A stretch of 63,567 nucleotides of DNA, taken from IMG/VR virus record IMGVR_UViG_3300030430_004778, positions 1-63,567 of that record; one strand, 5' to 3'. Positions 35,751 to 59,720 of the stretch are shown here, piece after piece. A model generated the notes under the pieces. That model was not told where the DNA came from, made no database searches, and worked only from the letters and a program-made list of their open reading frames with translations. Made by a program: the position numbers and the translations under genes. This DNA is from a virus. How positions within the stretch are numbered: position 1 is the first letter of the stretch; every line of letters begins with the position of its first letter.

Positions 35751-36047
35751 TTATTTTTCTCCTTGAATTACATCAAAAAGAGACTTTTTATCTTCCTCCG
35801 ATAATTGCACACTCGTATCGGTTTTCTTAGCCATAATTGACGTAAGTTTTACTAATTGCTCATTGGACCTCTGTAAGGTTTCTACATACTTGGCTGCGAT
35901 TAAACCAAGATCTTTGTGAGTTTCTTGACCATTGGTAATTTCTGCAAATACTTGTGTAAGGAGTGTGGAAGTAATATCGCGGTCGTCACGAATATTATCA
36001 ATCGCTTCTTTAATATAAGCTTCTATGTCTTTTACTGATCGTCCCAT
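35751..36047 (-). CDS. Small helical protein between sigma and tail genes, 98 aa
   Basis: Not recognised with confidence. Almost entirely helical and acidic (DIEAYIKEAIDNIRDDRD, then AAKYVETLQRSNEQLVKL). The start ATG overlaps the end of the sigma-factor gene by 16 nt, so it is translationally coupled to it. The size and the helical IAAKYVETLQRSNEQLVKL segment are weakly reminiscent of T4-type small terminase subunits. A late-transcription accessory role is another possibility given the neighbour. Neither can be shown here. Confidence 0.55.
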   Translation of the reverse strand: MGRSVKDIEAYIKEAIDNIRDDRDITSTLLTQVFAEITNGQETHKDLGLIAAKYVETLQRSNEQLVKLTSIMAKKTDTSVQLSEEDKKSLFDVIQGEK

Positions 36048-36730
36048 TCTTTTTTAAACTCCGCGTAGCGTTTTCTTACTTTATTAAGAGAACTTACAAC
36101 CTGCTTTGTATTTAATCCAGTAATCTCTCTAATATATAAGTAAATAGCTTTTTTATTAAAAATTTCTATATTGTTTGCTTCGCTAAAAAGAATCTCAATT
36201 GCCTGAATTGTCTTTACTTCGTTTTCTCTAAGAGGCATTTTCTTCCAGTCTTGAATTTCTTTATTGAGGTGTAAAAAAAATTCGTGTTTGTTTCTATCCT
36301 CTATGTAGGTGTTATGAACTACTAATTTCTGGATTGATGGAATGTTTGATTTATCTGAGTGGCTTAAAAAATATTCCTCTAGGTGAGTTTCTCTTTTTGC
36401 TTTTTTAGATGTCTTTTTTACCTCTGCTATAAACCAGTTTTTTGAAACAACACTAAAATAGGTAAACGCTTTAGAGCCTTTTTCTGGGTCAAAGTTATTG
36501 AGAACTGTAATCAGCCAATTTTTACAATCGTCTTTAAGAGAATCAATATTGGGAAGAGAAGTAAATTTGTAGGTATAAACAATTTTGTCTACCATTTCAT
36601 CAAACACTGGACCTATATAAACTTTGTAAAGTTCATTTCTTCTTTTTGAGTCTTGTGTTTGACAATATTCTACTATTGCGTCTTGATGTTCTCTTCTAAA
36701 ATAATGATTTTTAGTTCTCTTCCTCGCCAT
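36032..36730 (-). CDS. Late-transcription sigma factor, T4 gp55-like
   Basis: 232 aa (T4 gp55 is 185). The central segment NFDPEKGSKAFTYFSVVSKN, followed by WFIAEVKKTSKKAKRE, matches the sigma region 2 signature of gp55 (LHNFDETK, then AYITQACFNAFVQRIKKE). This region binds core RNA polymerase and the late -10 element. The C-terminus ends with aromatic and acidic residues (FKKEWDDQ), where gp55 carries its sliding-clamp-binding tail. The start overlaps the upstream gene by 20 nt with GAGG 6 nt before ATG. A gp55 homologue predicts TATAAATA-type late promoters. Confidence 0.8.
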   Translation of the reverse strand: MARKRTKNHYFRREHQDAIVEYCQTQDSKRRNELYKVYIGPVFDEMVDKIVYTYKFTSLPNIDSLKDDCKNWLITVLNNFDPEKGSKAFTYFSVVSKNWFIAEVKKTSKKAKRETHLEEYFLSHSDKSNIPSIQKLVVHNTYIEDRNKHEFFLHLNKEIQDWKKMPLRENEVKTIQAIEILFSEANNIEIFNKKAIYLYIREITGLNTKQVVSSLNKVRKRYAEFKKEWDDQ

Positions 36731-37547: not shown

Positions 37548-37949
37548 TTAATAATTTTTAATTTTTTTAATGATATCCGAGGTCGATATTCCTTGTGTAT
37601 AGGGAACATATTTTATTTTTCCTAATTGTCTTGGTATTTTGTGTTGCTCATCGTATGCCTTTCTTATATCATCACCATGAACTACCAAATCGATATTGTT
37701 TTCATTTATAAAAGACTCAGTTATCAATAGAGGTGCATTCTCAATAACCTCATCAACATATCTACAACTTCTAACAATTTCATATCTTTGTTTATCTTCT
37801 ATAATTGGCTCTCTTTTATACTTGGCAGTATCTTCATCAGAATGTACACCCACAATAAGATAGTCACCTAAACCTTTGGCAGTTTTTATTAGATTTAGAT
37901 GTCCAACATGAAATAAATCCCCAACAATGTCAATGTATACACGAGTCAC
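37548..37949 (-). CDS. TagD/ethanolaminephosphate cytidylyltransferase-like enzyme
   Basis: 133 aa, the size of glycerol-3-phosphate cytidylyltransferases. DLFHVGHLNLIKTA carries the HxGH nucleotide-binding motif (H14, H17), and GISTSDIIKKI near the C-terminus is the RxxGISTT-type motif. The family transfers CMP from CTP to a phosphate. Here, next to AEP biosynthesis, the likely acceptor is AEP or a derivative, giving CMP-AEP by analogy with CDP-ethanolamine; this is inference. GTG start at 37949 with AAGGAG 5 nt upstream, overlapping the transaminase gene by 20 nt. Confidence 0.82.
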   Translation of the reverse strand: MTRVYIDIVGDLFHVGHLNLIKTAKGLGDYLIVGVHSDEDTAKYKREPIIEDKQRYEIVRSCRYVDEVIENAPLLITESFINENNIDLVVHGDDIRKAYDEQHKIPRQLGKIKYVPYTQGISTSDIIKKIKNY

Positions 37950-38934
37950 GGAAACTCCTTAAAATGTAATCATATTCCTCATCAAACCTTACACTCATAG
38001 TCGAAACTCTAAAACTATTTTTAATATTTTTTATGCCATCATATATTATTATTTTTTTACTCTCTAAAAATTGTCTCAGCTCTTGATAGGATTTGTTAGG
38101 ATGAATAAATCCCATAATAGAATTACACGGTTTGTGATTGACGCATCTTATATTAAGTTTTGCAAAATCATATATTACTTTGTCTCTTCTTTTATTCATT
38201 AGTTCTTCGGTAACAGCTGATTTTTTTAATGCGGTGCGCAGCGCCGCGACACACTGCACCGGAAGTGTAAACGGAATGTCATTTGAAGAATACTTTTTTA
38301 AATTTAAATAATAGTTTTTTTGCCTTACAATTAGACTTTTTTTCCAAATCACAATACCTAATCCCGGCGTAGATTGTAAACATTTATTTGAGCAAAAAGA
38401 TATTGCATCAATGTTGTCTAAATATTCTGTATAATCAGTTGCGCCGAAAGCAGACGTCGCGTCAATAAACAACCTTTTTTTTGGAAAATAATGACAAATA
38501 TCTTCTAAACAAAACTTTTCACCAGTTGTTGTTTCATTTTCAACAAAATATAACTTATTACTAATCATTGATAGCTTGAGTTTGGCTAAATCACTAGAGT
38601 CTTGTGCCATAGAAGATATAGATTCTATACTATAAAAATCCATCATTTCTTTTGCTCTTAGACCATATTTCCCAGATATTATAATATTAGTATTGTCCAG
38701 TAAAGATGATATTAAGGCTTCCATCGCAGCAGTTCCAGAGCCGCCGAAGATAGAAACATTCCAATCTTTTAGAGTAGCCTTTTCGCTGAAACGACTAAGT
38801 AAAAGATTTTTTGTCTCGTTTAAAATAAACATGAAATCTTCTGTTCTGTGACAAACATCTGAGTGTTGACTTTGAGACTCTTTGACTTCACTTAGTGTGT
38901 TGGTTGGTCCAGGATTTAATAAAAGATTATTCAC
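37930..38934 (-). CDS. phnW: 2-aminoethylphosphonate transaminase (class V, PLP)
   Basis: 334 aa. LLLNPGPTNTLSEVKES and an HSDVCHRTEDF stretch are the usual PhnW N-terminus. FGGSGTAAMEAL forms the PLP phosphate-binding loop, FIDATSAFGA holds the cofactor Asp (D158), and SNKCLQSTPGLGIV holds the Schiff-base Lys (K184). PhnW-type enzymes interconvert phosphonoacetaldehyde and AEP. With PEP mutase and decarboxylase beside it, the biosynthetic direction is expected. GTG start at 38934 overlaps the decarboxylase beta gene by 8 nt. Slightly shorter than cellular PhnW (about 360). Confidence high on family, good on substrate. Confidence 0.88.
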   Translation of the reverse strand: MNNLLLNPGPTNTLSEVKESQSQHSDVCHRTEDFMFILNETKNLLLSRFSEKATLKDWNVSIFGGSGTAAMEALISSLLDNTNIIISGKYGLRAKEMMDFYSIESISSMAQDSSDLAKLKLSMISNKLYFVENETTTGEKFCLEDICHYFPKKRLFIDATSAFGATDYTEYLDNIDAISFCSNKCLQSTPGLGIVIWKKSLIVRQKNYYLNLKKYSSNDIPFTLPVQCVAALRTALKKSAVTEELMNKRRDKVIYDFAKLNIRCVNHKPCNSIMGFIHPNKSYQELRQFLESKKIIIYDGIKNIKNSFRVSTMSVRFDEEYDYILRSFRDSCIH

Positions 38935-39391
38935 TCAGCAGTGCCTTTATTTGATTTATGTTTTGATCGCAAGATAAACCAACGCGAGGCAACTTACCAT
39001 CTTTTGAAGTTTTTATGATCTCGTCTATCCCAGGATAACTGTCTTCAAGTTTTGCACATTCGTATGATCCTACTGATTCATGGGAGTTGTTATCTATAAC
39101 ATAAACATGTAAGTTTGATAGGTTTTCATCTCTAATTGTATGAGTTATTCCCAAGTGCATAAGTAAAGATCCATCGCCCACAAATGCAACAACATGTTTT
39201 GTTGTATTTTTTGCAATTCCAAGTGCTATAGCTGGTGATAAACCCATGCTTCCCTGCATATATAATATATTTTTATTGTTTGGATATAAATCGTATACAG
39301 CTCTAGATAAGAACCCAGTGTTTGTCACATAGATTGCTTCATTTCCGTATTTTTTAAACACGTTTTTGATTGCTTGCGATCTATTTAACAT
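38927..39391 (-). CDS. Phosphonopyruvate decarboxylase, ThDP-binding subunit (beta)
   Basis: Corresponds to the C-terminal half of phosphonopyruvate decarboxylase or ComE of sulfopyruvate decarboxylase. FVGDGSLLMHLG begins the thiamine diphosphate motif GDG-(about 28)-NN, completed by VIDNNSHESVGSYE. QGSMGLSPAIALGIA precedes it, as in the family. A GTG at 39400 is also in frame; ATG 39391 is preferred because GAGG lies 8 nt upstream. The gene overlaps its alpha partner by 11 nt. The two must combine to form an active site. Genes for PEP mutase and AEP transaminase on either side argue for phosphonopyruvate rather than sulfopyruvate. Confidence 0.85.
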   Translation of the reverse strand: MLNRSQAIKNVFKKYGNEAIYVTNTGFLSRAVYDLYPNNKNILYMQGSMGLSPAIALGIAKNTTKHVVAFVGDGSLLMHLGITHTIRDENLSNLHVYVIDNNSHESVGSYECAKLEDSYPGIDEIIKTSKDGKLPRVGLSCDQNINQIKALLSE

Positions 39392-39776
39392 TGTTTTCAC
39401 CTCTAACTAAAATGTAGTTTGTATATCCAATTAATTTTAAAAGAGCTTCATCAATCTCACCCATTACTTTATGCTGTGGTAGTGTATGCCTATGACCTAT
39501 AACCAAAAGAGGCTTAACATCAAAAGGAATACACAGACTCGTTAAAGGGTTTACTATATTGCCTAAGCCTGAGTTTTGTAAATATACGCAGCTTTTTTTA
39601 CCAGCTAATTCTGCGCCAAACGCGATGGCTAAAGCTTGTGATTCATGAGTTGCTATTATGTTGTCATAATTTGATTTAATAATATCATTTTGGAATCTCT
39701 TTAGAGCGCTATCTGGAACTCCAGTAAAAAAGTTGTACCCCTCTGTTTCTAGTCTTGTAAAAAGATCATGATCCAT
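39381..39776 (-). CDS. Phosphonopyruvate decarboxylase, pyrimidine-domain subunit (alpha)
   Basis: 131 aa. FFTGVPDSALKRF (residues 17-29) and THESQALAIAFG with the ThDP-activating Glu (E45) are typical of the PYR half of Ppd/ComD. YLQNSGLGNIVNPLTSL follows, also conserved. Cellular phosphonopyruvate decarboxylases are single chains of about 380 residues; here alpha plus beta total about 285 residues, so the central domain is absent, as in the two-subunit ComDE enzymes. Overlaps the PEP mutase gene by 11 nt and the beta gene by 11 nt. Its stop is TAG. Confidence 0.85.
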   Translation of the reverse strand: MDHDLFTRLETEGYNFFTGVPDSALKRFQNDIIKSNYDNIIATHESQALAIAFGAELAGKKSCVYLQNSGLGNIVNPLTSLCIPFDVKPLLVIGHRHTLPQHKVMGEIDEALLKLIGYTNYILVRGENNVK

Positions 39777-40635
39777 ATTTTTCTTGGTTTTCCTTCATTT
39801 CATCAACGGCAATAAGATCAAATATTTTTGACATCGGAACCACTAAATCATTAGCTGCAGATAGTGTTCCGCCCTCAATCATTTTCGTAAAAAGAGTTTC
39901 CAAAACTTTTACGGCGGCGCGGACTGAATAGTTTGCATAAATGGCTAAACTAACTCCACTATCTTTCATTTGCTGTGTTGTCATTGTATTATATGTGGTT
40001 GGAACAACAACAAGCGGCGTGGTTAGCCCAGCAGCATGATAAACATCACAAAAATGCTGTACCTCGTCTGGGGTTTTATTTTTATTGTGAATAAGAAAAC
40101 CGTCACAACCTGCATCAGTGTATGCTCTTGCTCTTTCCATTGCCACATCAATACCTCTACCTTGAATAAGTGCTTCTGTTCTAGCTACAACAGCATATCC
40201 AGGTTTGTTACTTTTTTCCAAAGCAGCTTTTATCTTGCCAACCGTAGTTGATGTCCTTTCTAGTTCTTTTTTCATTCCATAAAAAGAACATCTTTTGGGA
40301 GAAGGATTGTCTTCTATACACATACCCCATGCACCAGCTTTAGAATACTCTCTTGCCATTCTAATAGTGTTGATTGCACTAGGTCCACCCTCATCAGCAT
40401 CTACAAGAATCGGAACTTGTATCCTATCTGCTATTTTGCTAATTGCGTCAGCATAATCTGCTACATTTAAAATTGACGCATCCGGGAAGCGATTCCATGC
40501 GTGCATTTCAAAGCTTGACAACCATACTCCATCAAACCCTGCATTTTCTGCTAACTTGGCAATCATTGCATTGCTAGCTCCACAAACAAGATTAACTTCG
40601 TTTTTGTTTTCTAAGAGTTGTTTAATGGTTTTCAT
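39766..40635 (-). CDS. pepM: Phosphoenolpyruvate mutase (PepM)-like, isocitrate lyase superfamily
   Basis: 289 aa. Forms the C-P bond by converting PEP to phosphonopyruvate. Conserved: D52, the DAD metal motif (D79, D81), E108, R152 in VARTEA, H183 in LIHNKNK, and the PepM-like C-terminal run VVVPTTYNTM, SLAIYANYSVRAAV, MSKIFDL. The diagnostic PepM motif EDKxxxxxNS reads EDNPSPKRCS here: Lys to Asn and Asn to Cys, the Cys resembling the KRCGH of methylisocitrate lyases. The rest fits PepM better than lyase, and the neighbours complete the pathway. AAGGA lies 7 nt before the ATG. Confidence 0.85.
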   Translation of the reverse strand: MKTIKQLLENKNEVNLVCGASNAMIAKLAENAGFDGVWLSSFEMHAWNRFPDASILNVADYADAISKIADRIQVPILVDADEGGPSAINTIRMAREYSKAGAWGMCIEDNPSPKRCSFYGMKKELERTSTTVGKIKAALEKSNKPGYAVVARTEALIQGRGIDVAMERARAYTDAGCDGFLIHNKNKTPDEVQHFCDVYHAAGLTTPLVVVPTTYNTMTTQQMKDSGVSLAIYANYSVRAAVKVLETLFTKMIEGGTLSAANDLVVPMSKIFDLIAVDEMKENQEKYGS

Positions 40636-40645
40636 TTTATTTTCC

Positions 40646-41380
40646 TTAAAATTGTTTTTCTTCTGAGTTGGAATTTCCTGATTTATACTTTTTTCCTTTT
40701 ATTTTGCATATATCTGGTGGTACTTTTTTAAACTTATCCGCATGATATATCTCATAATTATTTCCGTCAGAAATAGGTGTATAAGTGAAAAAAAGAACTA
40801 CCCTCGCCTCTGAAGTATTGTTTTTATACGATGCATGAGGAACATAACTATCAAAAAATATTACATCACCTTTTTCAGTAGGCATCGGCTCCAGAGATAT
40901 ATTTTCATCTAAATCTTGAAACGTTTCAGTTAGTTGTTTATTTTGTGTTTCTCCGAAAAACATACAGCTGTTTTCCAATGTAGTGTCACTTAAAGGTAGT
41001 GCAAATGTTATGTGCCTGCTAGAATACTTATTCCAGCCAGCGGAAATATCCTGATGGGGTTTAAATCCATCTCCATTTGGATACTTAAAATTTATCTTAT
41101 CTTTAAAAAGAACAGATTTTTCGCCCATCAAAGCGTTAACTTCATTTAATATTTTATCACTATTGGCTAATTCATTTAAGAATAAACTATGGTTTACAAA
41201 ATACTCTATCCTGCTCAGTGTTTTTTTGTCTTGTTCAAAATACTTCCAAATGTAATTTTTTCTATCTTTTTCTTTTTCCAGTTGTTTTATATTTAAAAGT
41301 ATATTGTCAACTTCAGATTTAGAAAAAAAACTCTTTTTAATTTTTTTTCCGAAAGCTTCTGACCAGCTGTATTGTATCAT
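40646..41380 (-). CDS. Phytanoyl-CoA dioxygenase-like Fe(II)/2-oxoglutarate oxygenase
   Basis: 244 aa. The 2-His-1-carboxylate triad is visible: H109 and D111 in KPHQDISAGW, and H182 in VPHASYKNNTS, with R193 in ARVVLFF to bind 2-oxoglutarate. The fold position of DVIFFDSYVPH is standard for PhyH enzymes. This family includes PhnY-type enzymes that hydroxylate AEP. Given that PepM lies immediately downstream, hydroxylation of AEP or of a sugar is the leading idea; the substrate is inference. The C-terminal about 40 residues are Lys-rich. The start ATG has GGTGA upstream. Confidence 0.78.
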   Translation of the reverse strand: MIQYSWSEAFGKKIKKSFFSKSEVDNILLNIKQLEKEKDRKNYIWKYFEQDKKTLSRIEYFVNHSLFLNELANSDKILNEVNALMGEKSVLFKDKINFKYPNGDGFKPHQDISAGWNKYSSRHITFALPLSDTTLENSCMFFGETQNKQLTETFQDLDENISLEPMPTEKGDVIFFDSYVPHASYKNNTSEARVVLFFTYTPISDGNNYEIYHADKFKKVPPDICKIKGKKYKSGNSNSEEKQF

Positions 41381-41398
41381 ATATCACCATTCTCAAGG

Positions 41399-42085
41399 TT
41401 AAAGTATATCACAAATTATAGTAACATGAGTTTTCAAATCGGGATTAGTTCTGAAGCCCGGTTGAGCTAGGGCGTCTTTTCCTTGAAGGATTTCAAATTT
41501 TCTTAAATTTGTCATTTGTTTTAAAATTTCGTTAGTTTGCAAAAACGTTTCTTGGTCAAAGCTATTGTAGCCACTAGTAGATTCATCTCTCGTACAATAA
41601 TTTACATCTAAAACCATTTTTGCTCCTGCTCGGGCGACTCTTGGTAATGATCTAATTACGTCATTTATGCATAAAGAAGACATCCCAGTGTATAGGGTGT
41701 GTGCAGAAAATATAAAATCAAATTTTTTTTGATATTGTTTTTCTTGACAAAAATCAATTATATCCATATGTAGTAATTTTATATTTTCATATTGTCGTTG
41801 GTTTTTTTCTTTTAATTTGTTATCGGTTTTTTCTGCAAAAGATAACATGTGCTCACTTAAATCGACTCCAAATAAATTTTTACAAACAAAAGATTTAAAA
41901 AATCTACCAGTACCACATCCAACATCCAAAACATTTTCGCATTTATTTTTAGAAAAAAAATCTATTACGTATTCGTTTAATTTAATCCAATTTTTATTAT
42001 TTATTGCTTTTTCGTCTTTTTTGTATATTTTTTTGGCTCGGTACGGATCATACGATCCAAGATTATCTTTTGCTATTTTACTCAC
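41399..42085 (-). CDS. Class I SAM-dependent methyltransferase
   Basis: 228 aa. Motif I NVLDVGCGTGRFFKSF (residues about 54-69), an acidic motif II (LFGVDLSEHML) and motif IV FDFIFSAHTLYTG are those of a Rossmann-fold methyltransferase; GAKMVLDVNYC fits the next strand. No substrate signature is seen. It sits between the dioxygenase and the 909-aa glycosyltransferase fusion, so AEP (N- or O-methylation), a sugar or a peptide are all possible. GTG start at 42085 with AAGGA 11 nt upstream. Confidence 0.8.
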   Translation of the reverse strand: MSKIAKDNLGSYDPYRAKKIYKKDEKAINNKNWIKLNEYVIDFFSKNKCENVLDVGCGTGRFFKSFVCKNLFGVDLSEHMLSFAEKTDNKLKEKNQRQYENIKLLHMDIIDFCQEKQYQKKFDFIFSAHTLYTGMSSLCINDVIRSLPRVARAGAKMVLDVNYCTRDESTSGYNSFDQETFLQTNEILKQMTNLRKFEILQGKDALAQPGFRTNPDLKTHVTIICDIL

Positions 42086-42100
42086 TTTGATAAAATTCCT

Positions 42101-44830
42101 TTAATCGTTGTCCTCATATATTCTATGACGGAAAGAAATCAGTCCTTTCTTTTTTAAATAGTTACAATCGTATGATTGCCACAGCTTTTCAAAGAAAGCA
42201 AAAGATGTAAAAGTACCAGCATCGTTATACCAATATTCGTTCCAATCCTCGTACTGGTTTCCTGTTGGATAAAAATGATAAAATAATTCTTTAGCCCGAG
42301 CTAAATTATTTTTGCTTAAATATTCCTTCTTGTGATCTTCTGATATCATCATGATACAATCACCCACATCGGATCTCCGAAGTAAATTGCCTGTTTTAGA
42401 AACTATAGGGCTACCCCAAGGCTGTTGATAATGACATGTGGCAGATTTAAAATCAGAAAAAATAAATTTTTCTAAATCAAATTTTTTAACGTTTATCAGA
42501 TCACCAGCAACCATAATACAATCACCATTAACGGAAAGAGCAGCCTCAAAAGTACTGATAATTTTATCGTTTTTTGGATTTAATACTTTAACTTCAGGAT
42601 AGTTTTGTTCTATATGTAAAATTAAGTCAGTATTTTCACTGCTGGCGACAACATACGTTTTTGTGTTTTTAATATCACATTCGTCTATTAAGTTATTTAT
42701 TAACGGCTTGTTTTTAAAAATTTCTAAATGTCGGTTCCTGTTTGGCTTTGGTGGTCCACCCGCTAATATTACAATATTTTTAAAGTTTGGTGCCAAAAAG
42801 CCTTTTGACATTTCTACATCTTTAATATCTTTTTCTTCCTCGCGTGTTGATTTCATCTTTACCATACCGGACAAAGAAATAAATTTTACTCCATGTACAT
42901 ATATGTGCTTATCTGGATTATATAATATTTCTTCGGCGCTATCAACGTAATATTTTATGTAATCTGCATGTGATCCAACATTGGCTGTAAATGGAATGTT
43001 TCTAGATTTTAAGTGAAGCAGATCAAAATCTCGGCAGTCCCTAATACCGTAAAGAGCAAGAGGGGCGCTCCCGCCTACACAAAAATCTTCTAATTCTAAA
43101 TCACTATTGGCTATAACATTTTTAGTCTCATTTATAAATTGTTTTATTTTTTTTCTGTTGAAGCAGCCAACCTTTGATTCGTTCATATATTTGAGAGTTG
43201 GATTATGAAATACTATGGTTGCATTTCTCCAAGCTTCTTCATATGTATCAGTTGCGTGCATACTAGGTTTTCCTACGCCAACAACTTCTCTTATTTCGTT
43301 TTTAGCTTTGTCTACCTGTTCTAAACTCTCGCATTCTAACAATAAAACCTTAACTGTGGAACCTTTTGCGAAATTAAGTCTTGCCTGATCGATAGCACCA
43401 GGATATCCATTAGCTTCATTTCCGAGCCATTCTTCTTCAGAATATGAGGAAATAACATAATTTAACATACCATTTTTTGTTAAAGATATGTCTTTATGAT
43501 AAACTACACTTATATTATGTTTTCTAAATATTTCATATGCTTTATCAATATATGGAAGTGAATGAGAATAAAGAGAAGCAACAAAAACATTCTTTTTTAG
43601 TCGCATATATTCTAAACACATAGCATCAGCAATATCTCTGTCTAAGCCAGTCGACACAATATCTTTTTTATTTAAAAAATAATCTGCCGAACATACCACC
43701 TGACCTTCAGACACAGGACTTTGTTTACATATTACTGGCTTGTCATAAACTATTGAAGCTGCAGTGCGATGTGAACCATTTAAAAGATTATTATCCGAAG
43801 TAACTGGTATGTAAGACTTTTCTTCATCAAATCCATTACTTTTAATATTATCCAGTACATCATGATAAGATTCATAAAAATCTTCTAGGTTGTTTTTAGG
43901 TGGGTTTTTTTCTGTAAAGCCTCCCCATACATCTAAATGATGCTCATACACCTTTTTTGCAAAAATATTTGAAACGCTTTTTTCTCTGTGTCTAGCATAT
44001 AACGTTTTTGCAGTTAAATCAAATCTTAAACCAGTAAGAAGATCAGAGGCATCATCTAAAACAAATCGATCATCATACTTGCTACTTAGTCCATATATCC
44101 TTTGGTATTTGGGCTTTTGTCTTATGTCCATCTCATAAGACAATTGTTTTTGACGTTTTTCAGGAACTACATGGTCATTGTTATCATGTAGATTATAAAC
44201 ATAAACTATCTCTTTAACAAATTCTACTTTGTCACCTGCCATTTCGAGCATTGGAAACATAAAAGCTAAGTCCCATGCTGCTTCATAAAATTTACCATCT
44301 TTGTTTTTAAGATCTTCTATATTAATGTTTTTCCATAGATTATATTTAAATGTTCTTAAAGCAGACGTCATCCAAGGGGATGTTCTATAAGATCTGTTCT
44401 TGATTATTTTATTAGGTACTGGTTTTTCACAGAATTTACTTTTTCTACCAGATGGATATAATATATGGCTTCCGTAAGTAAGCCAGCATTGCTTTTCTTC
44501 ATAGTATTTAATTAACGTTGATAAGACTTCTTTATTTGCAAACCAATCGTCACCATCAAGGGTAACTATCACATCTTCATCATTTGGATTAGATTTTTTT
44601 ATGGCATTATATATATTTTCTAAAGCTCCAACGTTAGATTTATTTTTTATTAATATAAATCTGTCATCATTTCTTATCTCTCTCTCGGCTACATTAGTTG
44701 TATTGTCACTAGAAGCATCATCAATCAATAGACATTGAAAATCTTTGTAGCTTTGTGCCATAACACTCCTAATGCAGACCTTTATCCATTTTTCTACATT
44801 ATAAAAAGGCACAATTATTTTAAAATGCAT
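42101..44830 (-). CDS. Multidomain GT2 glycosyltransferase + ParB-like + NTase fold + MobA-like nucleotidyltransferase, 909 aa
   Basis: Residues 1-about 250 are a GT2 glycosyltransferase (KIIVPFYNVEKWI; TLDGDDW with the metal-binding DxD at 92-94). About 340-360 carry NNLLNGSHRTAAS, similar to ParB/sulfiredoxin-like GxHR motifs. About 575-675 look like an NTase fold (VGGSAPLALYG at 585-595, RDFDL at 600-604, a later KDIKD). About 685-909 begin NIVILAGGPPKPNRNR, a MobA-like NTP-transferase loop with a likely catalytic Lys (K708). MobA-like enzymes include the AEP cytidylyltransferase PntC. The fusion could activate and transfer a (phosphono)sugar group; domain borders are approximate and roles inferred. 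Confidence 0.78.
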   Translation of the reverse strand: MHFKIIVPFYNVEKWIKVCIRSVMAQSYKDFQCLLIDDASSDNTTNVAEREIRNDDRFILIKNKSNVGALENIYNAIKKSNPNDEDVIVTLDGDDWFANKEVLSTLIKYYEEKQCWLTYGSHILYPSGRKSKFCEKPVPNKIIKNRSYRTSPWMTSALRTFKYNLWKNINIEDLKNKDGKFYEAAWDLAFMFPMLEMAGDKVEFVKEIVYVYNLHDNNDHVVPEKRQKQLSYEMDIRQKPKYQRIYGLSSKYDDRFVLDDASDLLTGLRFDLTAKTLYARHREKSVSNIFAKKVYEHHLDVWGGFTEKNPPKNNLEDFYESYHDVLDNIKSNGFDEEKSYIPVTSDNNLLNGSHRTAASIVYDKPVICKQSPVSEGQVVCSADYFLNKKDIVSTGLDRDIADAMCLEYMRLKKNVFVASLYSHSLPYIDKAYEIFRKHNISVVYHKDISLTKNGMLNYVISSYSEEEWLGNEANGYPGAIDQARLNFAKGSTVKVLLLECESLEQVDKAKNEIREVVGVGKPSMHATDTYEEAWRNATIVFHNPTLKYMNESKVGCFNRKKIKQFINETKNVIANSDLELEDFCVGGSAPLALYGIRDCRDFDLLHLKSRNIPFTANVGSHADYIKYYVDSAEEILYNPDKHIYVHGVKFISLSGMVKMKSTREEEKDIKDVEMSKGFLAPNFKNIVILAGGPPKPNRNRHLEIFKNKPLINNLIDECDIKNTKTYVVASSENTDLILHIEQNYPEVKVLNPKNDKIISTFEAALSVNGDCIMVAGDLINVKKFDLEKFIFSDFKSATCHYQQPWGSPIVSKTGNLLRRSDVGDCIMMISEDHKKEYLSKNNLARAKELFYHFYPTGNQYEDWNEYWYNDAGTFTSFAFFEKLWQSYDCNYLKKKGLISFRHRIYEDND

Positions 44831-45656
44831 TTTCTACCGTCCGTAATATATCTACTTTTTTTTCATAAATGTAATTTATCAATTCTTCTCCTTTCATTTT
44901 AAACCACGGCTCACCTGTTGCCCCAACTAAATTGTTAGTTTTGAGAGACATATTCATCATTCTTGATTCAACAGCCACTCTAGATAATGTTTCTGGTGTT
45001 TTTGGGAAAAAAATTAAATGTTTATTTTTTGATAAATTTTTATAAAATTGATTTGGCACGTCAGGGCTCACTATTTCATAAGCTATATTATTTTTTTTAC
45101 AAAAATACTCGGCGCCTAAAGTATTTTTATGAGCCTCTCTCGCGTAAATTATAGAAGCTTTATCTTTTTTTTCAATACTAGAGTATTTTTTAAATAACTC
45201 TAAATGATCATCAGACCATAAATTGCCGCTAAGATTTTTTATGTTATCGAGATTTAAATTTTTTTTAACTATTTTTTCATGAAATTCACTTTGACAAAAA
45301 ACATTGTTTGCGTTTTTATAAAAATCAAAATTTATTATTTCACTTTTTGGAGCTATAAAATTTTTATATATTGCTGGATTTCTTGATCTAATATATTTAT
45401 GATCATGCTCGTAGATTATATAAGGTTTTTTCCCATTTGATATGTCATTTATCGTTTTGTTTTGTAGATTAGAAAAATTTGATACTAATATTGCATCAAC
45501 CTCGTGTAGTGATTTACTGTCTACCAAGTGGCTTTGTTTTTTTAACACATTCCAACCATTTTTAACTAGATTGAAAATCAATTCAGCGTTATTTAACTCT
45601 CCACCACCAACAACCTGATCAAGAAAAAAGTCATCAATGAATAATAAATTACTCAT
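44820..45656 (-). CDS. GT-B-like glycosyltransferase, 278 aa
   Basis: The N-terminal part (LLFIDDFFLDQVVGGGELNN, then PYIIYEHDHKYIRSRNP) and the C-terminal donor-binding part (LIFFPKTPETLSRVAVESRM) follow the layout of GT4-like GT-B enzymes. The chain is shorter than usual (about 350-400) and lacks a perfect ExxxxxxxE motif (ETLSRVAVE is close). It overlaps the 909-aa gene by 11 nt and the next GT gene by 8 nt, so all are co-translated. Sugar and acceptor unknown. Confidence 0.7.
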   Translation of the reverse strand: MSNLLFIDDFFLDQVVGGGELNNAELIFNLVKNGWNVLKKQSHLVDSKSLHEVDAILVSNFSNLQNKTINDISNGKKPYIIYEHDHKYIRSRNPAIYKNFIAPKSEIINFDFYKNANNVFCQSEFHEKIVKKNLNLDNIKNLSGNLWSDDHLELFKKYSSIEKKDKASIIYAREAHKNTLGAEYFCKKNNIAYEIVSPDVPNQFYKNLSKNKHLIFFPKTPETLSRVAVESRMMNMSLKTNNLVGATGEPWFKMKGEELINYIYEKKVDILRTVENAF

Positions 45657-46923
45657 AATTTTCTACATTTAATTCATCAAACCAATCTTGTAAGTTTTCG
45701 GCAACATCCTCATAACCTATAACTTCTTTTACAATATCTGCAAATTTTTTGTTTTGATTGGATAAAGTAAACTCATCGCATATCCAAGTTTTAAGTTTTT
45801 TAGCTTGTGATTTAAAACGACTGTAATCTTTATAGACTTCGCGAAGTTTCATTTTATAAGATCCTTGGCGCGGGTAAGCCCACATTGAATCTCTTTGTAT
45901 AACTCCGTCCCAGACAGCGCCTTCAAGTACAGAATCTACATCGCATTCTATACGAGCAAAGTGTGGTCTATTTTTTTGTTTACCTTTTTTATTTTTTATC
46001 GGTTTATACAAAAAGTCTAAATGACCTGACCAATCGGTGGCAATTACTGGTAGTCCACTATAAGCCGCCTCAAACAATGGTAATCCAAACCCCTCTCCAT
46101 GAGTTAAACTGATGAGAGCGTGAATAGATTTATTTAAATAAAGAGAATGCATTTCTTCATCGCTTAAATCCCCATGCAAAAGATAAACCTTACATTTTCT
46201 GCTTTTATATTTTTTTAGTAATTTTTCTAGCTCGTTTGTTATTAATTTTCTATCAATTGCATTTCCACCGGTAAGAAATGTCTTAACTACCAAACCAACG
46301 TCAGGATTATCGATAAACTCTTCAACAAACCAAGATATAGTCGCACCTATATTCTTTCTCGGACCCCATTGCGCAACAGTTAAAAAATTAAACTTAGTTG
46401 GCAAATCTAAGTTTAAATCTGGTAATTTATCGTATGTTTTAACAGGATAATGAACTATATCTATATCTTTATTGCAAGTTAAAGTCATTCTTTGTCCGGT
46501 TGCTCGATCAATTCCTTCATAAAAAGTATCAATGAATCCTTTTTTTGAGTGTTCTGATATGGTAATCACTTTATCCATTTCGTTGACTTTCTGCAACCAT
46601 AGGGGTGCCACTTTATTTGTTTCAATTCCGGCAGTTACTCCGATATTTATAGGAGCCATTTTCTGCCATTCGTTTGGAATAGTTACTTGAACAGATACGT
46701 CATATTGTCCTCTTTGTTCAGTGTAAATGGCTGTTTTTTTAATTAAGTCGTCTAGCCACTGGCGTTCTTCACTGTCTTCCCAAACCCATGCAGAATTACC
46801 CCAATTAACCGGAAATAGATATATATCAATTCCTTCTAATTCACGAAGACTTCGAAGAACAAATCGACAATGCTCGCCATATCCGGTTCTAGTGAGCGCC
46901 GGTCCTCTTACTAAGACTTTCAT
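45649..46923 (-). CDS. GT4-family glycosyltransferase, 424 aa
   Basis: The N-terminus VLVRGPALTRTGYGEHCRFV is the acceptor-domain glycine loop. GEGFGLPLFEAAYSGLPVIA is the GT4 donor-site motif, with two Glu at the EX7E positions. FLTVAQWGPRKNIG marks the nucleotide-binding part. A full-length GT-B enzyme. Start ATG 46923 has a near-perfect AAGGAGG 7 nt upstream within the end of the preceding GT gene, so it should be strongly translated. Acts with its neighbours in building a glycan; donor unknown. Confidence 0.85.
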   Translation of the reverse strand: MKVLVRGPALTRTGYGEHCRFVLRSLRELEGIDIYLFPVNWGNSAWVWEDSEERQWLDDLIKKTAIYTEQRGQYDVSVQVTIPNEWQKMAPINIGVTAGIETNKVAPLWLQKVNEMDKVITISEHSKKGFIDTFYEGIDRATGQRMTLTCNKDIDIVHYPVKTYDKLPDLNLDLPTKFNFLTVAQWGPRKNIGATISWFVEEFIDNPDVGLVVKTFLTGGNAIDRKLITNELEKLLKKYKSRKCKVYLLHGDLSDEEMHSLYLNKSIHALISLTHGEGFGLPLFEAAYSGLPVIATDWSGHLDFLYKPIKNKKGKQKNRPHFARIECDVDSVLEGAVWDGVIQRDSMWAYPRQGSYKMKLREVYKDYSRFKSQAKKLKTWICDEFTLSNQNKKFADIVKEVIGYEDVAENLQDWFDELNVENYE

Positions 46924-48194
46924 TAGGCGACCTCCTTAATTTGCCAACGTTTTGAATAATTTCTTGTGTCCCAAGATCCCTCTTCTTCATGAATTTTGAT
47001 CAGGGTATCAACCCAAGTTTTGTTAAAATTATCAAAATTATAATTTTTCATAACATGTTCACGACCAAGTTGTCCCATTAGTTTTCTCTCGTCTTGTGTC
47101 ATATTATAAATCTCTTCCATAGCACCTACAACCACTTCTTCGCTCAATCTATCTTCATAAATCCACGGAATTTGTTGAGATCCTATAATTGCTTTTGAGG
47201 TTGGATAAACTGGTATACCAAATTTTTTATCGCCATCTAAAACTTGTTCTTGTAACCCACCAGTCATGTTAACTATAATCGGCGTACCACAAGAAAGAGA
47301 CTCAAGCGTTGCTAGTCCAAAGCCTTCTGCGTCAGAAACATTTATTGTGCAATCTGCCATATTATACATTACAGATAACTGTTTTAAGTTGACTTTTTGT
47401 TGACTAAATAATACTTGACCGTCAGTAAGATTTAAATGCTCTATAATCGCCTGAAGATCTTGCCCATTTGGATCTTTTACCTCAGTGTGCATCACAAGAC
47501 TAGCTTTATCGTGACCAACTTTATCAAGAAATTTTTTAAACCAAAAAATTAAAGAGCCAGACTGTTTTCTTCTTGCGTTTCTATTATTCCAAAAGAAAAT
47601 AAATTTATCTGGATCATAAAAATCTCCAAACACAGATCTTTTATACTCATCTGTTAAATTTTCATTGTTTTCTAATGGTTTGAATATTTCATTGTTGACG
47701 GCATGAGGGATGTATTGTGATTTTACCTCGGGGGCAACAGTTTTCACAATGTCATCTGTTACTTTTGAGATGGTAGCAATGAAATCATTTGATTCATAAA
47801 ATGTTTTATTGTAAGTGGGGTAAGGATAATTATCCCAAACGTGATAGTAGACCATAGGCATAAGAGGGCGAATTTCATTTTCCATTTCCCACAGCCATCC
47901 CCAGAAGCGAGGATCAGTCATAAACCACATAATATCTGGTTTCTCTTGACGAATCAAAGACCTCACTTGATCTTTGGAGCCATACCCATCAACAGGAAAC
48001 ATAATCCAATCTTCGCCATATTGATCTGTTTTAATTGGATCATATTTGGGGTGTTTGATAGCTCCACCGAATGAGCGGATTTGAAACTTACCAGTTTTTA
48101 GAAGTGCTTCACATACATATCTCGTTTGAGTTCCAACTCCAGAGGGTGAAAGAGGCATGTCACTAAGAGTGAAAACCTTAATTTTTTTATCCAT
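46923..48194 (-). CDS. GT4-family glycosyltransferase, 423 aa
   Basis: FTLSDMPLSPSGVGTQTRYV is the N-terminal Gly-rich acceptor loop. SDAEGFGLATLESLSCGTPI is the GT4 EX7E donor motif, and KFIFFWNNRNARRKQSG is the nucleotide-binding loop. Full-length GT-B. It is the first gene of the glycan/phosphonate operon in transcription order, with GAGG 5 nt before ATG and an 8-nt gap to the nuclease gene. It is followed with a 1-nt overlap by another GT4. Phage GT4 enzymes glycosylate DNA, virion proteins or host surface glycans; here the phosphonate genes suggest a glycan decoration. Confidence 0.85.
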   Translation of the reverse strand: MDKKIKVFTLSDMPLSPSGVGTQTRYVCEALLKTGKFQIRSFGGAIKHPKYDPIKTDQYGEDWIMFPVDGYGSKDQVRSLIRQEKPDIMWFMTDPRFWGWLWEMENEIRPLMPMVYYHVWDNYPYPTYNKTFYESNDFIATISKVTDDIVKTVAPEVKSQYIPHAVNNEIFKPLENNENLTDEYKRSVFGDFYDPDKFIFFWNNRNARRKQSGSLIFWFKKFLDKVGHDKASLVMHTEVKDPNGQDLQAIIEHLNLTDGQVLFSQQKVNLKQLSVMYNMADCTINVSDAEGFGLATLESLSCGTPIIVNMTGGLQEQVLDGDKKFGIPVYPTSKAIIGSQQIPWIYEDRLSEEVVVGAMEEIYNMTQDERKLMGQLGREHVMKNYNFDNFNKTWVDTLIKIHEEEGSWDTRNYSKRWQIKEVA

Positions 48195-49008: not shown

Positions 49009-49407
49009 TTATTCCTCTGTTTTTTTCTTTCTGGTTGCCCTTTTTCTTTTTGGTTTTGTTTTCGGCATCTTTTTTAAACCATTGGGCAACGAAGCTTCTT
49101 TTTTTTGCTCCTTTATAGGAGACTCAGCTTCAATTTTTGTTTTATCTATTTTAACATTATCTTTTAAAATGTCAAGATCTATATTTTTCTTCGCAAAAAC
49201 CCAAGTACCGCTGAATTTATCAATATTATTTAAAACATTGGATGGTGAAGATAATATTTCACCTATGTTTACATTTGGGTGATTTTTGTTAATCCACTCG
49301 ATTGCATTACTATTTGTAAATAACATAGTGCTGCCTCTTTTTCCTCTAAATTTAAGTTTAACTTTTAAAACCACTTTATCATCCTTATCTTCTAAAATAA
49401 TGTTCAT
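49009..49407 (-). CDS. Basic-tailed small protein, 132 aa
   Basis: Not recognised. The N-terminal about 80 residues look like a small alpha/beta domain (KVKLKFRGKRGSTMLF, then NAIEWINKNHPNVNIG). The tail is very Lys/Arg-rich (KTKPKRKRATRKKKTEE), suggesting nucleic-acid contact. AAGGAG 5 nt before ATG; its start overlaps the metallopeptidase-like gene (ATGA), and its stop abuts the nuclease start. Possibly a partner of the nuclease, by position only. Confidence 0.6.
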   Translation of the reverse strand: MNIILEDKDDKVVLKVKLKFRGKRGSTMLFTNSNAIEWINKNHPNVNIGEILSSPSNVLNNIDKFSGTWVFAKKNIDLDILKDNVKIDKTKIEAESPIKEQKKEASLPNGLKKMPKTKPKRKRATRKKKTEE

Positions 49408-50084
49408 GTTTTCTCCTTAAAATCAAAAAGTGAATCTATTTTTTGGTAAAGAACCGGACTAATTTCTTTTAATTTTCCTCTACTTTTCAGTAAATAGTTT
49501 TCAAAACCATTCGCCCAATACTCTCTCAAAGCAGTAATAGCGTAAGGAGAATAAAACAATTCAGCAGACATCCCTCTTAATTTATCGTAACCGATATTAC
49601 GATATAAATGTTGATCAAAATCGTAATCATAATCTGGATTATCATAATCATCGATGTCGTATTTATCATCATCCAAAAGATAATATAAATATTTTCTTTT
49701 AGCTAAAAACTCACGCTCTAAACGACCGTCACCATATATTTCATCTTCATTTTTTTCTTCAATAGCGTGAGCCAGTTCGTGAAGTATATCATCTAATAAA
49801 TCTGCTTCATTATCTTGTTCTGGTGATAAATATATTGCACCATCTTTGAACATAGCATTGTACTCACGACCATCTTTAAAAAATTCTTTCACATAGCCTA
49901 CAAAAAATCCATCAACATTGTCAAAGAAATGTTCTGGTGTGAGTGTTTCAATTTTGTTTTTTATAAAATCTAAATTAATTTTATTTTCAAATTGTTGTAA
50001 AAAAATAAAAGGTTTTCCGTAAATGTTATACTGTTTTAATTTTTTTTTAGATTTATTCATACCTTCAATTATATATTCTTTCAC
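49404..50084 (-). CDS. HExxH zinc metallopeptidase-like protein, 226 aa
   Basis: LLDDILHELAHAIEEKNEDE contains HELAH, the zinc-binding HExxH. A downstream AITALREYWANGFENYLL places a Glu where gluzincins bind zinc, similar to anthrax-lethal-factor-like peptidases. Between them is a very acidic, Asp/Tyr-rich segment (DKYDIDDYDNPDYDYDFDQH). No signal peptide, so cytoplasmic or virion-packaged. GTG start at 50084 overlaps the upstream stop (GTGA). Substrate unknown; could process phage structural or host proteins. Confidence 0.7.
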   Translation of the reverse strand: MKEYIIEGMNKSKKKLKQYNIYGKPFIFLQQFENKINLDFIKNKIETLTPEHFFDNVDGFFVGYVKEFFKDGREYNAMFKDGAIYLSPEQDNEADLLDDILHELAHAIEEKNEDEIYGDGRLEREFLAKRKYLYYLLDDDKYDIDDYDNPDYDYDFDQHLYRNIGYDKLRGMSAELFYSPYAITALREYWANGFENYLLKSRGKLKEISPVLYQKIDSLFDFKEKT

Positions 50085-51819: not shown

Positions 51820-51827
51820 TATTTATA
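51820..51827 (-). promoter_or_regulatory. T4-type late promoter (TATAAATA), minus strand
   Basis: Exact TATAAATA on the minus strand about 135 nt upstream of phoH. It faces the plus-strand element at 51766-51773, so the two transcripts would overlap at their 5' ends. Confidence 0.35.
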
Positions 51828-51865
51828 TGGGAGTAAAAATCTCAGAGACATCGGAGGATAAAAAA

Positions 51866-52624
51866 ATGAGTAGGGTTATGGTTGGTACCCTCGCATTCGT
51901 TATGCTGTTTACTTTCTCTTGCGGCACAATGAATTCAAGTGTAAAAAATGATTTTCCAAGAGAAGGATTTGCGTTTATTAGCAAAACAGTTCAGTTGAAA
52001 AGATGCTTTGGTAAAGACAATTGTGCCACAATGGATTTACGATCTTCAGGATCTGGTTACGTTGTTAGACTATCCGACAAAGGCGCCTATATAGTTACCG
52101 CCGCACACGTTTGTGATGGTGAAAGAGGTTTATTAGAATCGGTTGAACAAACTATTCATATGAGAGTTTCAACATTATCATTAAAAAAATATGATGCGAT
52201 TGTTCTAAAAAAAGATCAGTCAATTGACGCTTGTTTGCTTTTTGCCGAGGGTTTAACTGAAGGGGTAGAGGTTATACCTTTAGCAGAAAAGCCTCCAAAA
52301 AGAGGTGAAAAAGTCTACAATATAGCGGCTCCTTTGGGCATGTTTGATTATGATATGGTTCCAGTCTTCGAAGGTAGGTATGCTGGTGAGGAAAGTGGGC
52401 AAGACGTCTATTCTTTAGCTGCTACTTTTGGATCTTCTGGATCTATGATATTAAATTCTAAAGGTGAGTTAGTAGGAATGGTTCACTCTGTTTTGGTAAA
52501 GTTTAGAAATATTGCTATTTCTTCACCTTATGAAAAATTAATGAATTTTATTAGAGGCGGTCTTTCCGAAGTAATATTAGCTGAATGGGCTTGTGTTGCA
52601 CCGAGTAAGTGTCTTAAATATTAA
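51866..52624 (+). CDS. Trypsin-like serine peptidase lipoprotein (only plus-strand gene)
   Basis: 252 aa from ATG 51866, chosen over ATG 51827 because GGAGG lies 8 nt upstream and the start then gives a clean signal peptide. Residues 1-19 (VGTLAFVMLFTFSC) are a lipoprotein signal with Cys19. A PA-clan protease follows: H81 in TAAHVC, D121 in IDACLL, and S191 in TFGSSGSMI, with GELVGMVHSV as the last strand. Predicted periplasmic and membrane-anchored. Could alter the host envelope or exclude other phages; inference. It converges with the next minus gene, the two TAA stops sharing TTAA. Confidence 0.82.
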   Translation: MSRVMVGTLAFVMLFTFSCGTMNSSVKNDFPREGFAFISKTVQLKRCFGKDNCATMDLRSSGSGYVVRLSDKGAYIVTAAHVCDGERGLLESVEQTIHMRVSTLSLKKYDAIVLKKDQSIDACLLFAEGLTEGVEVIPLAEKPPKRGEKVYNIAAPLGMFDYDMVPVFEGRYAGEESGQDVYSLAATFGSSGSMILNSKGELVGMVHSVLVKFRNIAISSPYEKLMNFIRGGLSEVILAEWACVAPSKCLKY

Positions 52625-53873: not shown

Positions 53874-54608
53874 TTATTTATTATAGTCTGGTGATTCTGG
53901 TTCTGGTAAGGTAGGTTGAAGCTCTTCTTCAAATCTATCAAAGTAAAGTTTAAGATTGGTTAACATATATTCTTTATACAATTTTCTGTCTTCATCATCA
54001 GCTAGTGATTCATAGGCATCTTGAATTTGATTTTCCACTTTATTAAATGTAGTGGAAGCGAAATTTCTACCAGTAACATTCATACCCTCTAAATCTTGAA
54101 AAGTTTTAGGTTCTTCGACTTCTTCTGGTTCAGTTGGCATGTCTTGATCACGAACTGGAATAAATTTATCTTCTACATCGATATCCAAAGAAATTTCTTC
54201 TTCAAGTTCATTTTCTTCTTGACTTCCTTCGACCCCTGCTGTAAGATCTACTGGTGCTAAAGAATTCTGTACTGCGTTTAATATGTGGGCTCTGAAAGAA
54301 TCTCTTTGTTCTTTAGAAGTAGTAAGCGCTTTATAAGCATCTTCAACAATAGGAATGACAACTTTTAAAGTATCTTCAAGAACGTTGATCCCCGTTGCTC
54401 TTTGAGGCTGCTCATCAGGAACATCAGCACTGACTTCTTTAATGAGAGATCGAATAACACTTCGAAGTCTATTTTCTTCAAGCATTACTTTTTCTTTCTT
54501 TTCAGCAAGATAATTCTCTAGAAGGCCACGAATTACTTTTCGAAAACGTTGTTCTTCTTTTAGCTCTTTTAAAAATTCATCGCGATCAATCATTAATTTA
54601 CTCTCCAA
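53874..54608 (-). CDS. Acidic coiled-coil protein, 244 aa
   Basis: Not recognised. Two similar basic-amphipathic helices near the N-terminus (RFRKVIRGLLENYLAE and NRLRSVIRSLIKEV) are followed by a helical domain, an extremely acidic linker (ENELEEEISLDIDVED) and a second helical domain (FNKVENQIQDAYESLADDED). The [R/K]xxIRxxLxEE pattern recurs in several nearby proteins. Composition resembles phage scaffold or core proteins, but this is weak. ATG overlaps the 922-aa gene end by 11 nt, with GGAGAG upstream. Confidence 0.6.
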   Translation of the reverse strand: MESKLMIDRDEFLKELKEEQRFRKVIRGLLENYLAEKKEKVMLEENRLRSVIRSLIKEVSADVPDEQPQRATGINVLEDTLKVVIPIVEDAYKALTTSKEQRDSFRAHILNAVQNSLAPVDLTAGVEGSQEENELEEEISLDIDVEDKFIPVRDQDMPTEPEEVEEPKTFQDLEGMNVTGRNFASTTFNKVENQIQDAYESLADDEDRKLYKEYMLTNLKLYFDRFEEELQPTLPEPESPDYNK

Positions 54609-59698: not shown

Positions 59699-59720
59699 AA
59701 AACCCTCCAAATGAGGTTTT
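59699..59720 (-). promoter_or_regulatory. RBS-embedding hairpin before purA
   Basis: Minus strand AAAACCTC-ATTTG-GAGGGTTTT, an 8-bp stem with one bulged G, immediately before ATG 59698. The Shine-Dalgarno GGAGG lies in its loop and 3' arm. Same design as the hairpin at 53219-53237. Confidence 0.45.

Follow-up and report, generated by a model that had tools for sequence, protein, structure and literature searches.

A probable phosphonate module within an exchangeable glycan-building island of T4-like phages

The virus record IMGVR_UViG_3300030430_004778 of IMG/VR (the window, 63,567 bases in all and probably a fragment) carries at positions 37548-48194 an island of eleven genes, all on the minus strand, that probably represents a phage-encoded phosphonate module with a product of the 2-aminoethylphosphonate (AEP) type, set within a swappable group of glycan-building genes. 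In transcription order the island comprises two GT4-like glycosyltransferase (GT) genes, genes for proteins of 278 and 909 amino acids (aa), a methyltransferase gene, a PhyH oxygenase gene, the phosphoenolpyruvate (PEP) mutase-like gene pepM, ppdA and ppdB for the two chains of a phosphonopyruvate decarboxylase (Ppd), aept for an AEP transaminase (AEPT), and the cytidylyltransferase gene cyt (Table 1). A single transcription unit is plausible, since the intergenic distances range from -20 to +18 bases throughout. The genes named by an earlier reading of the sequence alone (the original prediction) are all found here on this strand; of the four glycosyltransferases that it counted, three have family support, whereas the 278-aa protein has no match in Pfam or NCBIfam.

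The PepM-like protein scores 221.2 bits against TIGR02320, below the curated cut-off of 319.55. In an alignment to the mussel PepM (1m1b) the metal and substrate residues are kept, D52, D79, D81, E108, R152, and H183 corresponding to D58, D85, D87, E114, R159, and H190, which are the active-site residues named for this enzyme (PMC7916636), while the position of N122 is occupied by Cys; the window and ten other phage copies have the loop EDNPSPKRCS in place of the motif EDK(X)5NS. TIGR03297 is the best family for both PpdA and PpdB, with 102.6 and 94 bits on two separate genes against a cut-off of 312.5 that spans both thiamine pyrophosphate (TPP) domains; these domains are present on the adjacent genes as PF02776 (26.1/26.8 bits, just under the cut-off) and PF02775. 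AEPT reaches 143 bits against TIGR03301, by far its best family (cut-off 360.8), and keeps the lysine motif for pyridoxal phosphate, in which SNKCLQSTPG, invariant in the phages, is aligned to NKCIQGVPG of 1m32. The cyt product exceeds the PF01467 cut-off of 21 with 82.2 bits and contains LFHVGH and QGISTSD, corresponding to the HxGH and GIST motifs. The nearest solved enzymes are PepM 5unc, PntC-AEPT 6pd1, the ethanolamine-phosphate cytidylyltransferase (ECT) 3elb, and the Fom1 CyTase 5x3d.

A scan of IMG/VR by the PepM loop returned eleven contigs, all true relatives. The order pepM-ppdA-ppdB-aept-cyt is constant in every sister contig spanning it, with one methyltransferase gene inserted in G006, and the core recurs in this order in viral contigs of two phage lineages, which excludes chance. 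The ratio of nonsynonymous to synonymous substitution rates (dN/dS) between the sisters G003 and G007 is 0.04-0.15 across the five core genes, which are therefore maintained by purifying selection. In contrast, the flanks are variable: LicD-family genes border the core in G001, G002, and G004, and a search of the window for this family (PF04991) found none; other flanking genes encode FkbM methyltransferases in G001, a GDP-mannose dehydratase-like protein in G003, a DegT aminotransferase in G004, and a PseB-like protein in G006. The PhyH oxygenase of the window recurs only in G006 and G008, and its methyltransferase has no relative in the sisters. Directly upstream of pepM, G006 encodes a RuBisCO-like protein (L162:7034-8167; TIGR03326, 184.6/497 bits) which might act in a branch of phosphonate or sugar metabolism, either as an isomerase or as a decarboxylase. 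In G002, next but one after cyt, lies the gene of a B12 radical S-adenosylmethionine (SAM) protein of the Sden_1168 P-methyltransferase family (L156:14315-15961; 570.5 bits against a cut-off of 575), which, if the assignment is true, would make a phosphinate (C-P-C).

The contig with the operon also carries baseplate wedge and late sigma factor genes; the syntenic sister G001 (136 kb) adds the full set of tail sheath, major head protein, portal, terminase, and ribonucleotide reductase, and G006 has a T4-like clamp, clamp loader, and RegA, so that these phages belong to the Caudoviricetes as T4-like myoviruses. As regards database records labelled as phages, two from Acinetobacter were rejected as bacterial operons and two faecal ones look bacterial, while Vibrio phage Va2 remains; in particular, the records Acinetobacter phage MD-2021a and Bacteriophage sp. 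MT836947 (L007, L190), the latter with a canonical PepM, appear bacterial and would inflate counts of phage PepM.

Surveys of phosphonate producers accept a PepM only with EDK(X)5NS (PMC6697681; PMC8931226), and Asn122Thr is usually blamed for the hydrolase chemistry of phosphonopyruvate hydrolase (PMC7916636). Because of the EDNPSPKRCS loop with Cys at N122, the window protein is not filed as a proven PEP mutase and its conversion of PEP to phosphonopyruvate is putative; the earlier claim that the three core steps are complete is thus not established. A loop-pattern scan detected EDN..PKRCS in at least 115 bacterial loci of many phyla (L019-L137), whereas a previous scan of genome contigs with long peptide patterns had given no match. 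Within stretches no longer than 8 kb, a ppd-like gene accompanies 63 of the loci listed, and 40 have AEPT in addition to ppd. In 20 bacterial genomes TIGR02320 has no strong match besides the Cys-type protein, and in all seven cases examined this protein is fused to a MobA-like nucleotidyltransferase, an architecture published for PepM-PntC. This bacterial clade apparently lies outside the published producer counts, since the motif used in the surveys would discard its members.

The phage proteins are monophyletic in the PepM tree (100/99), with Acidimicrobiia and Frankiales as their sister group (100/99); a 98/99 branch separates the Cys-type side from the canonical proteins. The lyase outgroup, whose branch is very long, comes out close to the Cys clade, but in an uncertain position. 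Two Acidimicrobiia cassettes (L038, L084) have the same five genes in the same order and the same loop, with 44-60% identity for four of the five, and differ in being cellular, in an AEPT only ~25% identical, and in that no attached GT island is seen in the stretch; no cellular relative closer than these was found among 395 genomes of the class to which L038 belongs. Because L038 and L084 carry the identical five-gene order, the cassette was most likely acquired once from an Acidimicrobiia-like lineage and then passed among phages, the direction being one that we infer.

With canonical PepM as query, 32 further viral contigs were found (the 33rd match being G001), at least six of them with terminase or sheath families; their PepMs are different from that of the window and for the most part canonical. 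In 29 of the 32, a Fom1-like fusion joins PepM to a cytidylyltransferase; separate PpdA and PpdB usually follow, 55-68% identical to those of the window in most loci read, and an iron-dependent alcohol dehydrogenase (Fe-ADH) is present in five of the seven loci read, its best NCBIfam family being the phosphonate-associated PsrA at 60-83 bits, well below the cut-off. The TIGR02320 cut-off is exceeded by two viral PepMs (374.4 bits in L244 and 381.5 in L241) and the TIGR03301 cut-off by one viral AEPT (L261, 429 bits). The PepM tree requires at least three separate viral lineages; several of the 44 viral contigs are near-duplicates, corresponding to fewer than 44 phages. On L244, a 189-kb contig, a gene of the CDP-glycerol glycerophosphotransferase type (L244:4476-5519; PF04464) lies directly upstream of CyTase-PepM and is, by its family, a candidate transferase for a phosphonate activated with cytidine monophosphate (CMP). 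A second phage B12 radical-SAM protein (L265:8467-9984; PhpK family, 100/600 bits) is encoded after CyTase-PepM, PpdA, PpdB, and Fe-ADH.

The canonical module of L241 shares the slot of the window, being bordered by the same glycosyltransferase genes at one end and, at the other, by the same small gene and the late sigma factor gene (53%). Among the 80 nearest relatives by late sigma factor, some of whose stretches end early at contig ends, the phosphonate core occurs within 10 kb only in G001. Phages with a sigma factor 93-95% identical to that of the window have different genes in the slot; judged by eye, these resemble transketolase halves, nucleoside diphosphate (NDP)-sugar dehydratases and epimerases, cytidylyl- and adenylyltransferases, DegT aminotransferases, and cupin epimerases. 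Since near relatives fill the same slot with sugar-nucleotide genes, the phosphonate module looks like one exchangeable option in a locus supplying activated glycan building blocks. Positions 1-9250 of L266, L269, and L272 show, again by eye, differing sugar-nucleotide sets, with transketolase halves, a kinase plus a nucleotidyltransferase, DegT, and dehydratases.

In the proposed pathway, whose single steps are suggested by family membership, PepM would convert PEP to phosphonopyruvate; PpdA and PpdB, as one TPP enzyme in two chains, would yield phosphonoacetaldehyde; AEPT would produce AEP; and the Fom1/ECT-type cytidylyltransferase would form CMP-AEP. Because of the separate genes and the transaminase, the route of the window is read as one to AEP rather than to hydroxyethylphosphonate. 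A transferase would place AEP, which the PhyH oxygenase may hydroxylate and which may also be methylated, on a sugar chain built by the glycosyltransferases of the phage, and the glycan would most likely be linked to virion proteins within the cytoplasm and serve as a variable decoration of the surface; product, transfer, and target are those that we infer. In the sisters the LicD-family proteins may serve the transfer; in the window this role may fall, as a guess from structural models, to the second nucleotidyltransferase and the middle domain of the 909-aa protein. The C-terminal domain of this protein (model pLDDT 80) gives Foldseek matches to nucleoside triphosphate transferases including PntC (6pd1/6pd2, TM ~0.6), the middle domain has a weak nucleoside-diphosphate-kinase-like match (best E ~1e-3), and PDB sequence searches with the two domains gave no match. 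The phage-encoded AEP-type route joined to a glycan operon, as first proposed, is reinforced by the LicD genes and the radical-SAM P-methyltransferase of the sisters and by the canonical PepMs above the cut-off in related phages; the interpretation was borne out in part, and did not include the Cys loop and its clade, the second nucleotidyltransferase, the hydroxyethylphosphonate-type modules, or the sugar-nucleotide fillers of the slot.

Several points weigh against a module of this kind: no core gene of the window reaches its NCBIfam equivalog cut-off; EDK(X)5NS is missing from the PepM of the window, of its phage relatives, and of its cellular relatives; the transfer step has no confident gene in a contig lacking LicD and is the weakest of the route; the target is putative, be it the virion, the host surface, or DNA; for the GT islands of pelagimyophages, published work leans towards modification of the host O-chain (PMC7029224); and the contig is a 63.6-kb fragment for which no host is proposed, because the nearest cultured phages by PhoH and RecA are all below 40%. 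That the operon is host DNA or part of a chimeric contig, as the bacterial-looking 'phage' records with PepM might suggest, is practically untenable and was rejected, since identical junctions with phage genes on both sides recur in several independent contigs of up to 136 kb with hallmark genes (sheath, head, portal, terminase). It is unlikely that the Cys-type PepM is a hydrolase or a carbon-carbon lyase of the same superfamily and that the operon makes or uses another compound, such as a sulfonate: the loop departs from EDK(X)5NS at the position commonly blamed for the mutase/hydrolase difference (PMC7916636), where phosphonopyruvate hydrolase has Thr and lyases have Cys (KRCGH), the lyase outgroup lies near the Cys clade, though on that very long branch, and a sulfonate would call for a sulfopyruvate decarboxylase-like PpdAB, PpdB scoring 87 bits with the sulfopyruvate beta family versus 94. 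However, the PepM-type His183 is kept and PepM structures match best (193 bits versus 108 for methylisocitrate lyase); the Cys-type proteins, alone among strong TIGR02320 matches in the 20 genomes, are mostly MobA-like fusions of the published PepM-PntC kind and often stand beside ppd and AEPT; CMP activation requires a phosphate or phosphonate; and the corresponding slot of a related phage holds a canonical PepM together with PpdA and PpdB of the same family. Very improbable is a catabolic auxiliary module in which a PhnW-like transaminase and a phosphonopyruvate hydrolase-like enzyme would free phosphate from AEP during infection; PhnW is also catabolic, the Cys-type PepM is unproven as a mutase, and phoH is nearby, but such a route has no use for the decarboxylase and the cytidylyltransferase, neither a phosphonate transporter nor a phosphonatase was seen, and the glycosyltransferases are constantly linked to the module.

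As to the destination of the glycan, ten islands are almost devoid of membrane proteins (membrane segments in 6 of 169 proteins), which argues for assembly in the cytoplasm on a soluble acceptor such as virion proteins, and the virion is the most likely target. T4-like phages glucosylate hydroxymethylated DNA, and the glycan or phosphonate might likewise modify the phage DNA; this is improbable, because the thymidylate synthase/hydroxymethylase family (PF00303) was sought in all twelve contigs, which are fragments, and found in none, and the multi-gene nucleotide-sugar islands of the same slot fit an oligosaccharide better. A serious rival, albeit one to which we assign a modest likelihood, is a glycan destined for the host cell surface, with receptor masking or exclusion of other phages, as proposed for pelagimyophage GT islands (PMC7029224) and in keeping with bacterial phosphonates being mostly surface decorations (PMC6697681, PMC8931226); no flippase, polymerase, or lipid-linked initiating enzyme was recognised in the ten islands, where membrane proteins are all but absent, but the machinery of the host could supply these three functions.

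Bacterial AEP-glycan pathways (PepM, Ppd, AEPT, PntC, and LicD; PMC6697681) have the same logic from AEP through CMP-AEP to a glycan, share LicD with the sister phages, and include the Treponema PntC-AEPT (6pd1/6pd2), 6pd1 being closest to the phage AEPT; the phage differs in the Cys-type PepM, the two-gene Ppd, and a separate PF01467 cytidylyltransferase instead of a PF12804 PntC. The CyTase of Fom1, a CyTase-PepM fusion of the fosfomycin-type hydroxyethylphosphonate route, is related to the cyt product (5x3d), and such fusions prevail in the 32 further viral contigs; in contrast, the window has unfused genes and a transaminase. The glycosyltransferase-rich hypervariable regions of pelagimyophages likewise place variable sugar genes near tail genes in T4-like phages, but a term search found no mention of phosphonate genes in their description (PMC7029224). 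The cultured Vibrio phage Va2 (MW073017) has an annotated PEP mutase and a Ppd-like gene; its PepM is 27-28% identical, with the loop EDK(X)6NS and no relatives found in IMG/VR, its Ppd is single-chain, and the genes are not in one operon with AEPT or GTs. The earlier remark that no characterised phage is known to make phosphonates is qualified by the PEP mutase annotated in Va2, although no phage product has been shown. A phosphonate on a surface glycan is also suspected in the phosphonoglycoproteins of Prochlorococcus and SAR11 (PMC8931226), which are cellular, rely on a canonical EDK(X)5NS PepM, and were proposed there as protection against phages.

No report of phage-encoded phosphonate synthesis was found in the open-access literature, subscription papers and preprints being outside the scope of the search; the enzymes belong to known families, and it is their phage carrier, the Cys-type PepM, and the exchangeable nature of the slot that are new relative to the literature searched. 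The arguments are evenly balanced as to whether phages and bacteria of many phyla make phosphonates by means of a large unrecorded clade of PepMs with the EDN..PKRCS loop, with T4-like phages swapping AEP- and hydroxyethylphosphonate-type modules in a rapidly exchanged glycan-building slot. If this is true, phages themselves would be phosphonate producers. Phosphonates make up a considerable part of the dissolved phosphorus in the sea, and their production is attributed to bacteria identified with the PepM motif filter (PMC8931226); if phages produce them and a PepM clade was filtered out, the list of producers and the supposed anti-phage role would need revision. The island would make it directly testable whether a virus covers itself or its host with a phosphatase-resistant group, and the PepM of the window varies naturally at the residue to which the choice between mutase and hydrolase chemistry is ascribed.

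Table 1. Genes and domains of the island and the bordering anchor gene, with positions in the window
Feature	Position	Strand	Evidence
GT4-like glycosyltransferase, 423 aa, first gene of the island	46923..48194	-	NCBIfam GT4-type families 1e-12; 59-69% in G001, G002, G004
GT4-like glycosyltransferase, 424 aa	45649..46923	-	PF00534 3.9e-9; conserved in sisters
278-aa protein	44820..45656	-	relative of a domain fused to GT2 in G003/G007/G009
GT2 domain of 909-aa protein, residues 1-248	44087..44830	-	PF00535 7.4e-23; separate gene in G008
Middle domain of 909-aa protein, residues 249-674	42809..44086	-	separate gene in G006, G008; weak nucleoside-diphosphate-kinase-like fold match
C-terminal nucleotidyltransferase domain of 909-aa protein, residues 679-909	42104..42796	-	model and Foldseek; own gene beside pepM in G003/G005
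SAM-dependent methyltransferase	41399..42085	-	PF13847 4.5e-14; among compared contigs, window only
PhyH-type Fe(II)/2-oxoglutarate oxygenase	40646..41380	-	PhyH 2e-18; best NCBIfam methylphosphonate hydroxylase 1.6e-35; 58-59% in G006, G008
pepM-like gene, Cys-type loop EDNPSPKRCS	39766..40635	-	PEP_mutase PF13714 6e-39; TIGR02320 221.2 bits
ppdA, TPP-enzyme N-domain subunit of phosphonopyruvate decarboxylase	39381..39776	-	TIGR03297 102.6 bits vs sulfopyruvate alpha 63.8
ppdB, TPP-enzyme C-domain subunit of phosphonopyruvate decarboxylase	38927..39400	-	PF02775 1.7e-11; TIGR03297 94 vs sulfopyruvate beta 87 bits
AEP transaminase (AEPT), NKCLQ lysine motif kept	37930..38934	-	TIGR03301 143 bits; best PDB match PntC-AEPT 6pd1
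Cytidylyltransferase (cyt), ethanolamine-phosphate / Fom1 CyTase type	37548..37949	-	PF01467 4.9e-23; best PDB 3elb 3e-44, also 5x3d
T4-like late sigma factor bordering the island, anchor for slot comparison	36032..36730	-	phrog_234 8.5e-7

Other genes of the window were observed beyond the start of the island. The small protein encoded at 49404-50084 (-) has a HELAHA (HExxH) metallopeptidase-like motif and is conserved in three sisters. The sole plus-strand gene near the island (51827-52624), conserved beside phoH in G001, G002, and G004, has a signal peptide-like start and a GSSGS motif, which suggests that its product is a secreted trypsin-like protease. The gene at 54598-57366 (-) encodes 922 aa, with a CoaD-like nucleotidyltransferase motif (40 bits) inside the protein and ~30% conservation in G002 and G003. 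The adenylosuccinate synthetase-like gene at 58700-59710 (-), coding for 336 aa, matches PurA families with 278 bits and PurZ more weakly (141/300 bits), which leaves room for a function in 2-aminoadenine DNA without supporting it. Finally, the 622-aa protein encoded at 59753-61621 (-) combines MopE-like metal-binding repeats with a VWA segment, which is unusual for a phage.

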